Shown here piece after piece: positions 112 through 57,800 of a stretch of 57,966 nucleotides of DNA; positions within the stretch are counted from its first letter, which is position 1; each line of letters opens with the position of its first letter. The notes beneath the pieces are model-generated. The model did not search any database. It saw only the letters and a list, made by a program, of their open reading frames with translations, and was not told the DNA's origin. Origin of the DNA: Prevotella sp. (lineage in GTDB: Bacteria; Bacteroidota; Bacteroidia; Bacteroidales; Bacteroidaceae); assembly GCA_017557405.1 (NCBI GenBank), contig JAFYYV010000050.1, positions 1 through 57,966 of the forward strand. Reading direction: 5' to 3'. The position numbers were made by a program, and so were the translations under genes.

Positions 112-262
112 TTTTATTGCATGTGTCAACGATTCCAGTAAAGTGTCAACCCATTCAGGAAAACGTCAGTCATCTGTCATAACCGCAAGGGGTGGGGTGC
201 ACTTTTTTATTGAAAAGTATGCTCTCACATAAACGTTGTTGTAAAAATTTTTTACCTTGAAA

Positions 263-294
263 TTTGGAGGTTTCAAAAATAATTACTATCTTTG
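263..294 (+). promoter_or_regulatory. Promoter of the BspA-like gene
   Basis: TTTG at 263-266, a 20-base spacer, then TATCTTTG at 287-294. This is a full match to the Bacteroidota sigma-factor consensus (TTTG, 19-21 bases, TAnnTTTG). The chosen ATG lies 54 bases downstream. Confidence 0.75.
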
Positions 295-348
295 CAAACA
301 GAGAGAAATACAAATCTATTAACAACAATAACTAAAACCATAAAAGCA

Positions 349-11950: not shown

Positions 11951-12060
11951 GTCAAAGGATACAAATGACGTTGTCAAAGACCACAAATGAGCCGCTCAAA
12001 GCTATGCAATGACGTGGTCAAAAGCCACAAATGACGTTGTCAAAGACCATCAATGACAAC
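11951..12060. repeat. 22-bp periodic array A, five units
   Basis: Five consecutive 22-bp units at 11951, 11973, 11995, 12017 and 12039. Each starts NTCAAA and has TGA at unit positions 16-18, giving the frame NTCA-N11-TGAN plus a 3-base linker. Centre words (positions 8-12) are GATAC, ACCAC, CTATG, GCCAC and ACCAT. A period of 22 is not a multiple of three and no reading frame spans the array. The same unit structure recurs at 25925, 40403 and 57713. Confidence 0.85.
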
Positions 12061-12073
12061 ACTGCTTTTTTCC

Positions 12074-12397
12074 GTGTGGGACAAATGGGACAATTAGACA
12101 CCTCCTTTTTACGCCTCCCACTTTCCGTAGAAATTCCTGAACAGATTGATTATCAATAAGTTATATAAATTATTTAATATATATTAATAATTATAATTAT
12201 ATATTTAACTAAATATTAACATAGTTGTAGCTCATTTTTGTAGCTTTTTAATCAATTTTGATGCTCGTTGATTCAAATTCTTACTGAGAACCTCTCCATT
12301 TCAACATGCTAATAATCTTTTCCCTTTGTAGGAAGGTTGGGAGGGAGATTTGAAGCGTGTAAAAAACGTGTGTCTAATTGTCTCAATTGTCACAAAC
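12074..12397. repeat. AT-rich core flanked by imperfect inverted arms
   Basis: The left arm 12074-12120 and right arm 12338-12397 are imperfect inverted repeats. Best-matched parts are ACAATTAGACAC near 12090 against GTGTCTAATTGT near 12370, and TTTTTACGC against GCGTGTAAAAAA. Between them is about 220 bases, very AT-rich at 12150-12215 and including GATTATCAATAAG, a word that also occurs inverted near 41013-41025. Together with array A this fills the 594-base gap before the aminopeptidase gene. Confidence 0.65.
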
Positions 12398-13908: not shown

Positions 13909-13925
13909 AGTTCCCCTTTTAGGGG

Positions 13926-13981
13926 GATGAGGGATGAAGGATGAGGGATGAAGGATGAGGGATGAAGGATGAGGGATGAAG
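13926..13981. repeat. Four perfect 14-bp tandem repeats
   Basis: Unit GATGAGGGATGAAG repeated four times without a mismatch, right after the pepC stop. A complementary stretch (CATCATCCATCATCC and following, about 14015-14044) forms the last codons of the convergent helicase gene, so a transcript across the junction could fold back. The same GGATGAAGGATGAG words occur near 7741-7773 and 18626-18660. Confidence 0.85.
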
Positions 13982-14023
13982 GTTTGTTTGTCTTGAAAGA
14001 TAAAACTATTAAACCATCATCCA

Positions 14024-23959: not shown

Positions 23960-25648
23960 TCATTTAGCGAAGCGCAAGTATTCAGCCAGCGGCGAACCAT
24001 TTTGGCGAAGTCCCTTTGCAAAGCTTTGCGCGTTCAATTGCGCCCCTATCTTCGAAGCATGGGTGTGGTCTTTCTTGAAATAGACGCCCGCTTTCTGCTT
24101 GATGCGTTCCACCTTCTGCTTGGCCTTCTCCTTGTTTTTCGGCAGTTTCTTCACGGCGAACATCTTATCGAGCGCATCGGCAGAAATGTTGTGCATATCG
24201 ATGAATTCCACGCCTGTCTCTTCCACCACCTCGCGATACCATTTTCCGTATGTATTATCGCGTCGCTCAATGCGACCGCCTGGCCACTCGTTGCGCGGAG
24301 TGAGCGATACGAGAATCGGCGTAGCTCCCTTCTCTCTCGTATCGTCAATCATCTTCTTCAGATACCAACCGAACGAGTAAACCACCTCGTAGGTTCCATC
24401 GTCCATCTTGTAAACGTGCAGCGTATCTTTTGCGCTGGGAATCACGCCGCGAGCCTTCGCGTCGGTAATGGGACAGATGTCATTATGGCCGAATTGGATA
24501 GTCACAAAATCGCCAGGTTGCAACGATTCATACACCCTGTCCCACAAGCCTTCGCGAATGAACGAACGTGTGGAGCGACCTGCACGAGCGGCGTTGATGA
24601 GAGTGATTCTGTTCTCGTCGAACACCGTCGAAGCCTGCGAAGCCCATCCCCACATTCCATCCTCTTCGTTGTCGAAATTCTTCACCGTCGAGTCGCCTGT
24701 AAAGAAAACGCGAGGTTTGCCGTTGGTGGTGATATACTTCTGTGGAATCTCGACCTTCATCATCGCCTTCAGCGGCTTCAACTGCAGGTCTTGGCTCTCG
24801 AAGATGCCCATAGCGGCGCTTTCAGCATTCATTTCGGCGCCAAACTTCGACGTGTGAATCTTGTCGCCCAGGAAATGATAGTCAACCTTCCAGCGACTGT
24901 AGCTGTCGAGTTTTGCCCCGCTTATCTCGTTCAAGTCGATGAAAGGCACTCCTTCAGCGTTTGCCACTTGAATCGCCCACTCCGTGTGAGGTTTCCGGAC
25001 AATCTTCCCCTTGTTGTCGTAGGCGTTGCGAGGTGTGAGCGACATCAGAATAGGATTGGCTCCTTTCGCACGAATCTCGCTGATATAACGGCGCAGATAG
25101 TTGCCGTAGCTGTAGACGGTGTCGTTGGTTTGCTTGCGCTCGTTAAAACCAACAATCATCGTATCGGGGTCGACGCCGTTAATGACACCACGAGCCCTCC
25201 TCGCATCGAAGAAATCAGCTTGGTCATTGTGGCCAATTGAAACAAGCACCCAATCGCCTGGCTTCAGCGCCTCGCGAATGGCTGGCCAGAGGTCTGTATA
25301 GAACGTTCGTGTGGACATTCCGCCCAGCGCCTGATTCTCCACTGAAATCTTGTTCGCATCGAAATATTTCGGGAAGAAATAGCCCCAACCCCATTGTCCG
25401 TTGTTGCCGTTTCCCAGCGTTCCGTTGCGCATCGTACTATTGCCGATAAGGAACATCACGGGATTCGTTCCCTTGCGTGTGGAGCCTGGTTGCGGGCGGC
25501 TCATCAACGCTTTGGCAATCGAATCGGGCGTGTTGTCCACCACCTTTTCGGTGTCTCCAATCGGGTCGGGCAGGTTGTCGAATCCCTGTGCCCCAACCGA
25601 TAGGATTGAAGCCAGCACAAGAGCTATTGTTGCGAAACGTCGTCTCAT
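23960..25648 (-). CDS. Twin-domain SGNH/GDSL esterase, rhamnogalacturonan acetylesterase-like
   Basis: A 562-residue exported protein; the start at MRRRFATIALVLASILSVGAQ gives a good signal peptide and lies downstream of the -7 box. Two tandem SGNH hydrolase domains of CE12 type follow. Domain 1 has FLIGNSTMRNG (GNS in place of GDS), GHND and a DxxH in GDKIHTS. Domain 2 has FFTGDSTVKN, FGHND and DHTHAS. Both therefore keep Ser, Asp and His, suggesting two active sites removing acetyl groups from pectin-type polysaccharide. It is the first gene of a minus-strand set reaching dnaG; there are no other polysaccharide-utilisation genes nearby. Confidence 0.85.
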   Translation of the reverse strand: MRRRFATIALVLASILSVGAQGFDNLPDPIGDTEKVVDNTPDSIAKALMSRPQPGSTRKGTNPVMFLIGNSTMRNGTLGNGNNGQWGWGYFFPKYFDANKISVENQALGGMSTRTFYTDLWPAIREALKPGDWVLVSIGHNDQADFFDARRARGVINGVDPDTMIVGFNERKQTNDTVYSYGNYLRRYISEIRAKGANPILMSLTPRNAYDNKGKIVRKPHTEWAIQVANAEGVPFIDLNEISGAKLDSYSRWKVDYHFLGDKIHTSKFGAEMNAESAAMGIFESQDLQLKPLKAMMKVEIPQKYITTNGKPRVFFTGDSTVKNFDNEEDGMWGWASQASTVFDENRITLINAARAGRSTRSFIREGLWDRVYESLQPGDFVTIQFGHNDICPITDAKARGVIPSAKDTLHVYKMDDGTYEVVYSFGWYLKKMIDDTREKGATPILVSLTPRNEWPGGRIERRDNTYGKWYREVVEETGVEFIDMHNISADALDKMFAVKKLPKNKEKAKQKVERIKQKAGVYFKKDHTHASKIGAQLNAQSFAKGLRQNGSPLAEYLRFAK

Positions 25649-25924: not shown

Positions 25925-26034
25925 GTCAAAGCTATGCTTTCGCATTGTCAAAGCTATGGAATGAGGCGGTCAAAGCTATGCTTTCATCGCTCCATTTGTG
26001 GTCTTTGACAACGTCAAAAGCCACCTTTGACCCG
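25925..26034. repeat. 22-bp periodic array B, five units
   Basis: Units start at 25925, 25947, 25969, 25991 and 26013. The first three share GTCAAAGCTATG; the fourth is in the opposite sense (TTTGTGGTCTTTGAC), the fifth GTCAAAAGCCAC. Centre words are CTATG, CTATG, CTATG, GTGGT and GCCAC. The array sits in the 655-base gap between the divergent esterase and methyltransferase genes. The rest of that gap is AT-rich, with no gene seen. Confidence 0.85.
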
Positions 26035-40242: not shown

Positions 40243-40402
40243 GCGTTAGGCAATCGTTCGCTAACTCCCTTTTAAATAGGTGGCCGAGACTTGTATTTAT
40301 TTTTACAAAATCTTGTCGACTTTTCCGTTCAATCTAGAAAAGAAAATGGAGTGAAATAACGACTTTTTCGCTCCAATTTCCTCATTTTCCACACTTGAAA
40401 TT

Positions 40403-40534
40403 GTTACATGTGGCACCTGAGGCGCTCATAGTTATGCTTTGACCCGCTCAGATGATAGCTTTGACGCTCTCAAAGCATAGCTATGACAACCTCATTCCAT
40501 ACATTTGACCACCTCATTGCATAGCTTTGACAAT
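40403..40534. repeat. 22-bp periodic array C, five clear units plus one weaker
   Basis: Units start at 40403 (weak), 40425, 40447, 40469, 40491 and 40513. They mostly read in the opposite sense to array A: CTCATTGCATAGCTTTGAC is the complement of GTCAAAGCTATGCAATGAG. TCA at positions 2-4 and TGA at 16-18 hold in the five clear units. Centre words are GTGGC, TTATG, GATAG, CATAG, CATAC and CATAG. The array lies in a 1,044-base gap between convergent genes. Confidence 0.85.
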
Positions 40535-41053
40535 GCTATAAAATGTAAAGAAAACGGAAACCGCTGATTATCAACCATTTCCGAAAATGCTCAAAACTCG
40601 CGTATTTGCCCGCGAGGGAGAATTTTTTCAAAACGTTGGCCTTCTCGTGGCATCAAAATCTATAATTTTCTTTACATTAGAAGCATTTGAGTTTTGGAGG
40701 TAGTATTTACCAACATTTTCGTTACATTATGGTTACAAAACGCTCTCACAATTGTTCCAATTCATAGTGAAAAATGGCATTTATTACTCTATTTTCTGCA
40801 ACATGATATGCTGTTTGACCGAAAAAAACCTCCAAATGAGATGATGATGTTGAATTTCAAAACCGCATAATTGTACGCAAAACGTAGGAAAAAGCATCGA
40901 AACAAGCATTTTTTGCTGTTTTTTTGAGCCTTTTTAGAGGAAAAAACAGCATGTTTTTGTCCTTTTTACAGGAGTTGAATCATGGGCGCAGAGTATTCTA
41001 AAAATTATATCTTATTGATAATCAGACTTTTAGATGAAAATTCTAATGACTAA
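40535..41053. other. Gene-free AT-rich stretch with one inverted repeat
   Basis: No gene found. A perfect 13-bp inverted repeat, AATGTAAAGAAAA at 40542-40554 and TTTTCTTTACATT at 40666-40678, starts right after array C. The phrase TTCATAGTGAAAAAT near 40762 is close to TTCATAGTAAAAAAT near 57690 beside array D. TTATTGATAATCAGA near 41013-41027 is the complement of a word in the 12074-12397 element. Confidence 0.5.
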
Positions 41054-57485: not shown

Positions 57486-57712
57486 CCCTTTCAGTAGTGC
57501 ACTCCTGCCTCCTTGCTTCTTCCGTCGCCTCTTTTGGTTAATAGATTAGTTTTTTAATATTTTAATATTTTAATTTTTTAATTGTTCGAAGGAACTTCAG
57601 AATCTCGCCTGCGCGCTTGGCAAATAATCCATCATCCCTCTTCCATTTTTCACTACAAAGATACAAAAAATAAACATTGCCTCCAAATTTCATAGTAAAA
57701 AATCTTTACATT
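57486..57712. other. Gene-free region after sprA
   Basis: Contains iterated TTTTAATATTTTAAT words at 57550-57580 and a minus-strand -7 box (TATCTTTG at 57663-57656) with no gene downstream of it on that strand before sprA. I see no gene. Confidence 0.5.
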
Positions 57713-57800
57713 ATCAAAGGCCGCAAATAAGGATGTCATTTGTGGTCTTTGACCACCTCAAAGCTATGCAATGAGACGGTCATTGCTAGTCTTTTGCGCA
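57713..57800. repeat. 22-bp periodic array D, four units
   Basis: Units start at 57713, 57735, 57757 and 57779. The second reads GTCATTTGTGGTCTTTGAC, the third CTCAAAGCTATGCAATGAG, the same words as arrays A-C. Centre words are GCCGC, GTGGT, CTATG and CTAGT. The next 22 bases are only weakly similar. Confidence 0.8.

Follow-up and report, generated by a model that had tools for sequence, protein, structure and literature searches.

Intergenic arrays with a 22-bp pitch in a Prevotella genome: candidate sites for a dimeric DNA-binding protein

What are the tandem arrays of 22-bp units that recur between the genes of a single Prevotella contig? The window considered here is the whole 57,966-nt stretch analysed, contig C41 of a 3.56-Mb genome (G000, the source genome), and a preliminary description had placed in it four intergenic arrays whose units share a frame of TCA and TGA around an 11-base centre. 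All four are present with that frame (Table 1), although a profile scan gives 21 units where 20 had been counted, array 3 having seven units from 40382 rather than beginning at 40403. Searching the window for single units with TCAWWN7WWTGA gives 14 matches, one of which (at 25224) is outside the arrays, compared with a mean of 1.88 and a maximum of 6 in 100 dinucleotide shuffles. Tandem Repeats Finder, at a minimum score of 30, detects arrays 1 and 3 only. The genes next to arrays 1 to 3 are ordinary: a Pfam scan identified a peptidase C1-like protein, a GDSL lipase, a methyltransferase and a D-Ala-D-Ala carboxypeptidase, and two further neighbour proteins have no Pfam match.

Table 1. Arrays and associated repeated elements in the 57,966-nt window.
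Feature	Position	Strand	Description
Array 1	11952..12056	.	5 units, single sense; linkers CGTTG/GCCGC/CGTGG/CGTTG
MITE-like element next to array 1	12075..12394	.	ends inverted, about 25 bp, TGTGGGACAAATGGGACAATTAGACAC / GTGTCTAATTGTCTCAATTGTCACA, judged by eye
Array 2	25926..26030	.	5 units, senses mixed
'beta' host element	40300..40680	.	conserved left flank 40300-40400, array 3, conserved right flank 40538-40680
Array 3	40382..40530	.	7 units, of which the first two are weaker; lies in the middle of beta
'delta', repeated left flank of array 4	57669..57711	.	ccaaatttcatagtaaaaaatctttacat; related sequence at window 240-295
Array 4	57714..57796	.	4 units, last weak; close to contig end

The preliminary description had let its case depend on a genome scan, which proved favourable: over the 3.56 Mb, the frame pattern gives 270+273 matches, against 0+1 for the reversed pattern. 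We located arrays with a symmetric 22-column frame profile scored along 22-bp chains. At a cut-off of 18 bits or more this finds 53 arrays in 876 kb of the source genome and none in the reversed sequence, and at 16 bits it finds 56 against 2. With reversed controls of 0-1 genome-wide and 0 at 18 bits, a chance origin of the arrays can be rejected. Each unit consists of the 17-bp TCA-N11-TGA frame and a 5-bp linker that has G or C at both ends in 87% of 210 cases. Arrays hold two to seven units, most often five (26/53), and 45 of the 53 hold four to six. Throughout the 876 kb, strong units are separated by 22 bp in 85 cases and by 44 bp in 13, and by no other distance within 10-60 bp, with none in the reversed sequence. 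Extrapolation gives some 200 arrays per genome, a rough figure because the sampled stretches were partly picked for frame matches.

The centres of the units had been viewed as assemblies of interchangeable half-sites. A few centre words do recur in both senses among 229 units (CATAG/CTATG 90, GCCAC 32, ACCAC 29, ACCAT 23), but the halves associate non-randomly, TCAAAG being paired with TCATTG in 50 units and with itself in 10, and this association contradicts free recombination of half-sites. True palindromy is limited to the outer TCA/TGA; unit positions 4-14 and 5-13 are complementary at frequencies of 0.21 and 0.36, compared with 0.44 and 0.55 for independent halves.

A strict two-unit pattern, run against an 84,980-species collection, found eight stretches in three Prevotellaceae MAGs: RUG11493 (G200, also labelled G264), RGIG7148 Prevotella sp. 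(G201, also G367) and RUG12472 (G202, also G300), the second labels being assigned by identical coordinates. The profile scan of G200 yields 29 arrays in 380 kb and none in reversed sequence. With genes called by a purpose-written gene finder, none of the 53 source-genome arrays overlaps a called gene, and two of the 29 in G200 do so, by 27 and 7 bp. Of the 41 source-genome arrays for which both neighbours are known, 10 sit between convergent genes, compared with 10.5% expected from intergenic bases, and 9 of 25 in G200, compared with 16.8%. Where the flanking genes are co-directional, the array lies closer to the upstream gene's 3' end in 17 of 22 cases (7 of 10 in G200). There is no clear link between array sense and transcription strand among the 22 scorable source-genome arrays, 10 having the same sense and 12 the opposite; the corresponding numbers in G200 are 7 and 4. 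Stop codons occur in all six frames in 45 of 52 source-genome arrays (those of at least three units, the window's included), compared with 21 of 52 shuffled; because the 22-bp step sets TCA/TGA in successive frames, we do not take this as a sign of function.

The proposal that the arrays are a mobile repeat holds in part, since some lie within repeated elements whose flanks are conserved, and G200 lacks two of the eight that are collinear. The clearest host is the beta element, of which nine copies, both flanks confirmed by nhmmer, contain the array, with six units aligning without any change in length; one extra partial match to the right flank (L055) lacks it. The copies came initially from the frame scan, and because they are tied by their flanks, a test of divergence among them is less prone to frame-search bias. 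Mean pairwise divergence is 0.094 in the 36 TCA/TGA columns, 0.299 in the centres, 0.342 in the linkers and 0.329 in the flanks; the frame columns fall below the flank columns at a Mann-Whitney p of 8e-8, a value to be read with the copies being related and the columns not fully independent. Differences between centres cluster at 0-4 and 6-8 of 11 positions, as if centre words were exchanged whole between copies. Beta units 2 and 4 pair better within copies (14.3/17) than between them (11.8/17), an effect that largely tracks two groups of copies. Copies similar to the MITE-like element next to array 1 adjoin other arrays at varying distances.

Comparison with G200 indicates how these arrays change between species. 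Eleven source-genome arrays have both flanks in G200 blocks, and of these six are shared, with largely different centre words, two are absent and three lie at synteny breaks. The orthologous place of array 2 holds a four-unit array with other words. No array was seen at the matching G200 place of arrays 1, 3 and 4 (3 and 4 being matched by the left flank alone), and array 1 has a counterpart in G201 with the same flanks and four units instead of five. Across 23 unit pairs from the six shared arrays, centres agree at 6.0 of 11 positions, scored on a fixed strand at whichever of five unit shifts is best. Scored on the better of two strands, random source-genome units agree at 6.2 and random source-G200 units at 5.2; the latter agree at 3.8 on a fixed strand. 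The comparison of orthologs with paralogs is therefore not a strict one. Orthologs thus retain some likeness, not above that of units within one genome, and at 6.0 against 3.8 for random pairs the replacement of words is incomplete. Three of the orthologous arrays share a flank type; in them, three units are CTATG-type in the source genome and GTGGC-type in G200, while the outer units are alike in two of the three; a fourth G200 array of that flank type (L129) keeps CTATG-type words.

Beyond these sister genomes, at least one frame match occurs in 45 of 398 congeners (the source included), single matches being near the control level. Counts on the two strands are high in G000 (258/259), G264 (168/152) and G287 (119/121) and middling in G304 (12/10), G367 (10/10), G246 (6/6), G163 (9/3), G145 (5/4), G228 (5/3) and G376 (3/4). 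The same frame encloses other centre words in G287 (TCATTTCACTTAAATGA) and G202 (TCAAAGCGGCACTTTGA). An order-level scan found a single frame match in each of 7 of 39 other genomes.

The pitch was also assessed independently of the frame, by comparing intergenic self-similarity at a fixed lag with local shuffles in 12 congeners chosen without regard to it (11 have no frame match, and G028 has two). Little DNA was sampled per congener; G012, one of ten congeners picked by rule, and G390 were dropped for short contigs and G414, with 422 bases, was left out. The signal at lags 21-23 exceeds all shuffles in nine of the 12 (G003, G009, G010, G024, G026, G028, G049, G195 and G383), and in the limited DNA sampled it does not do so in G004, G016 and G029. 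The signals of G009 (heptamers) and G049 (an 11-bp repeat) are due to simple repeats, leaving seven congeners, and lag 22 is the strongest single lag in G010, G024, G026 and G195. Lags 21-23 are not above shuffles in five outgroup samples of 15 kb. A 50-kb control from E. coli K-12 gives a small lag-21 signal (18 counts against a shuffle maximum of 12), and the sole array found there sits in the annotated coding gene gfcA.

Two of these relatives carry abundant words of their own. In G195, AAACGGNCCGTTT is present in 239 copies and is absent from nine other genomes; reversed, it is absent from G195 and matches once per strand in G024 and likewise in G264. Among the first 100 places listed, closely neighbouring copies are 22 bp (35) or 44 bp (7) apart and form 58 arrays over 1.19 Mb. 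Some of the G195 arrays (L227-L232) appear by eye to be bounded by inverted ends like TTTACACNATTCCAATACATGCC, and the whole elements look palindromic. In G163, 260 copies of AAACATATATGTTT are interleaved with TCAAAGTTNAACTTTGA, with spacings of 23, 45, 46 and 68 bp among 66 of the listed places and peaks at 22, 45 and 23 in the lag spectrum. Unit symmetry exceeds that of the shuffled consensus at the 0.05 level in 6 of 8 arrays in G287, 2 of 4 in G195, 1 of 7 in G026 and 1 of 2 in G028, and is not significant in G024 (0/1), G003 (0/1) or G383 (0/4). Symmetry as a universal trait of period-22 arrays is therefore not shown for G383, G024, G003 and most G026 arrays, and the palindrome of one G026 array was set aside as low-copy (3+2 matches). 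From the lag and symmetry tests, the case for a genus-wide pitch is stronger than that for a genus-wide palindromic frame.

How do the arrays relate to repeats already described? Iterons of plasmid origins are tandem protein-binding sites about two turns long, confined to one locus per replicon and accompanied by a Rep gene, whereas the Prevotella arrays are dispersed through the chromosome. CRISPR loci consist of near-identical repeats separated by spacers of roughly repeat length, and the arrays have 5-bp linkers and varied units. The earlier statement that no known family matches is upheld across Rfam, IMG/VR, phage and plasmid collections (array 1) and the literature searched: Rfam gives no match in the window at the gathering threshold, IMG/VR gives no viral-contig match, and array 1, the one searched there, matches nothing in the phage and plasmid collections, so that viral or plasmid carriage is rejected within those searches. 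Among the literature matches listed, in which subscription journals are thinly covered, we found no description of such arrays.

The nearest systems in that literature are BrickBuilt, dRS3/NIME and REP/BIME. BrickBuilt of Porphyromonas gingivalis is a MITE/minisatellite with an intergenic 23-nt tandem repeat, present in 19 copies of 1 to 22.8 repeats with indels, and has IS5-like ends and predicted stem loops (PMC4596501). It shares with our arrays the Bacteroidales host, an intergenic tandem repeat of about two turns, imperfect units, predicted stem loops and, for some arrays, elements with conserved flanks, but no palindromic frame is described for it in the part of PMC4596501 consulted. The arrays also depart from it in their rigid 22-bp pitch, with two to seven and mostly four to six units in place of a 23-nt repeat of widely varying copy number, in their several host elements, and in the apparently bare arrays; flanks, compared here among the arrays themselves, are conserved for beta and other element types and missing for several of these apparently bare ones. 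The 20-bp dRS3 units of the neisserial intergenic mosaic elements (NIME) have a variable centre in an ATTCCC-N8-GGGAAT frame, distinct from TCA-N11-TGA, number about 700 intergenic copies, and are described with RS repeats of 30-160 bp in arrays of 200-2700 bp (PMC3898611). A fixed inverted frame, variable centre and intergenic location are thus common to both, whereas a fixed pitch is unmentioned in the portion of PMC3898611 used here. REP/BIME sequences are palindromes of 20-40 bp, tagged GTAG or CGTC and tied to tyrosine transposases, and like the arrays are high-copy, mostly intergenic and preferentially in unidirectional or convergent spacers (PMC3733652, in the part consulted). Such tags are found in 4.8% of 210 source-genome linkers, and Y1_Tnp, the REP-associated transposase, has no match in G200, G201, G202 or G012, one weak match in the source genome (24.9 bits, cut-off 23) and two in G145; its absence from the array-rich G200 leads us to reject a REP/RAYT origin.

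We propose, with a probability of about 0.42, that the arrays are DNA-level sites for a putative dimeric DNA-binding protein and that MITE-like elements carry some of them. The preliminary description had suggested either an array bound by a dimeric DNA-binding or nucleoid protein or a mobile repeat; the evidence favours a DNA-level site, and mobility is also real. This preference draws on the fixed two-turn pitch, the constrained frame, the lack of a clear strand preference and the failed RNA-structure control given below. Each unit would be a two-fold site, and because the pitch of about two turns would set successive dimers on one DNA face, several copies could dock side by side along an array. 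Dimers so arranged would impose a two-turn pitch, a two-fold frame, a set length, strand independence and species-wide words. In keeping with this are the exclusive 22/44-bp spacing, the 53 arrays with a mode of five units and none in reversed sequence, the absence of gene overlap and of strand preference, the convergent and 3'-side excess, the constraint on the frame relative to the flanks with six aligned units of fixed length in nine beta copies, and the similar pitch with unrelated words in G195, G163 (22/23 bp), G287 and G202. Against it, the frame constraint could be biased conversion, symmetry inside source-genome units is weak or negative and is non-significant in G383, G024 and G003 and confined to one of seven arrays in G026, five of the 12 sampled congeners (G004, G016, G029, G009 and G049) are without usable signal in the little DNA sampled, no array was seen at the G200 places matching arrays 1, 3 and 4, and word replacement between orthologs is incomplete. 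The excess of arrays at 3' ends and in convergent spacers would fit a nucleoid, supercoil-boundary or insulator-like role. The arrays may have spread partly inside MITE-like elements and been homogenised within species, in which case site words would turn over while the geometry stays. The near-same spacing and species-specific letters of several relatives suggest that spacing and symmetry matter more than exact sequence. A bolder version, which we consider rather unlikely, is that Prevotella chromosomes hold docking arrays by the hundred for a dimeric DNA-binding protein that evolves fast; the pitch would be constant across much of the genus, and the recognition word would be replaced between species at hundreds of sites together, in the manner of centromere or PRDM9 turnover.

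A close rival, to which we give serious weight while holding it somewhat short of even odds, is that the arrays are dispersed repeats, selfish or neutral, comparable to BIME, NIME or BrickBuilt elements. They would be copied inside small mobile elements, kept alike by recombination and without function for the host, and the frame would be a by-product of copying. Concerted evolution would explain the words equally well and tolerance alone would give the intergenic location, and the occurrence of arrays within several repeated elements, the orthologous places with no array or a different array type, and orthologous centres no better matched than random source-genome units (6.0 against 6.2 of 11, under differing strand and shift rules) all agree with it. 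It explains less well than a dimer array why the frame columns are far more conserved than the flanks of the same copies (0.094 against 0.329), and the six aligned units kept in nine beta copies and the recurrence of a similar pitch in other species whose words are unrelated also weigh against it. Were the arrays instead targets of a site-specific recombinase, for which dRS3 as the target of the Nf1 phage integrase and a suggested mediator of rearrangement offers a precedent in the part of PMC3898611 drawn on, recombination at the centres would reshuffle halves and rearrange the chromosome. Arrays do lie at 3 of 6 breakpoint junctions between the source genome and G200, compared with 4 of 29 collinear junctions (one-sided hypergeometric about 0.08), an enrichment that is suggestive only: the numbers are small, one breakpoint is probably a coding-repeat artefact and another is on a single contig of G200, and the junction count leaves out four shared arrays that lie within aligned blocks. 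Since the halves are associated rather than freely recombined, and neither viral contigs nor, for array 1, phages give a match, we regard this explanation as improbable.

Folding bears on a further alternative, that a transcribed structured RNA or single-strand hairpins are the selected feature. Relative to dinucleotide shuffles, arrays fold well (z about -3.4 for 52 source-genome arrays and -2.6 for 27 in G200), and the better pairing of beta units 2 and 4 within copies points the same way, although array 1 itself has z values of only -0.4 and 0.1. The signal is reversed when arrays are compared with redraws of their own units, against which they fold less well by +0.65+-0.14 z in the source genome and +0.49+-0.19 in G200, and with random strand flips (+0.94+-0.18 and +0.86+-0.24). 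We therefore reject RNA or single-stranded DNA structure as the selected feature and, with no clear transcription-strand preference and no Rfam match in the window, hold this alternative to be very improbable; selected hairpin folding of the REP/BIME kind is likewise not seen. Since redrawing the units gives better folding than the arrays themselves have, the feature would seem to reside in the duplex, as docking of dimers on DNA would have it.

Similarity searches would see the arrays of each species as unrelated, yet spacing, unit number and placement recur. If a protein does bind them, they form a system for organising the chromosome or setting boundaries that has gone unrecognised in Prevotella and whose specificity changes fast; if none does, they represent an abundant class of repeats whose concerted evolution is unusual. 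Array words may serve as species-specific markers, as the distribution of the G195 word illustrates. Short-read assembly, too, may be made harder by the arrays. Among the 23 source-genome contigs sampled, 11 (C1, C3, C5, C8, C10, C11, C12, C14, C20, C30 and the window's own) have an array at most 360 bases from a contig end, a count that covers part of all ends, and for this reason array-bearing, repeat-rich spacers may break assembly.

The window contains repeats of other kinds. Tandem repeats of period 7 or 14, with differing units, are found at 2213, 7747, 13924-13982, 14014, 16586, 17739, 19050, 33758, 38517, 46141 and 47807, and because they are so many, the heptamers look like a second repeat habit of the source genome; the congener G009 is also heptamer-rich, and G028 and G029 are octamer-rich. 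Coding repeats of 69 bp at 561-1508, within the open reading frame at 292-2202, may belong to a protein resembling the BspA-like leucine-rich repeat proteins.
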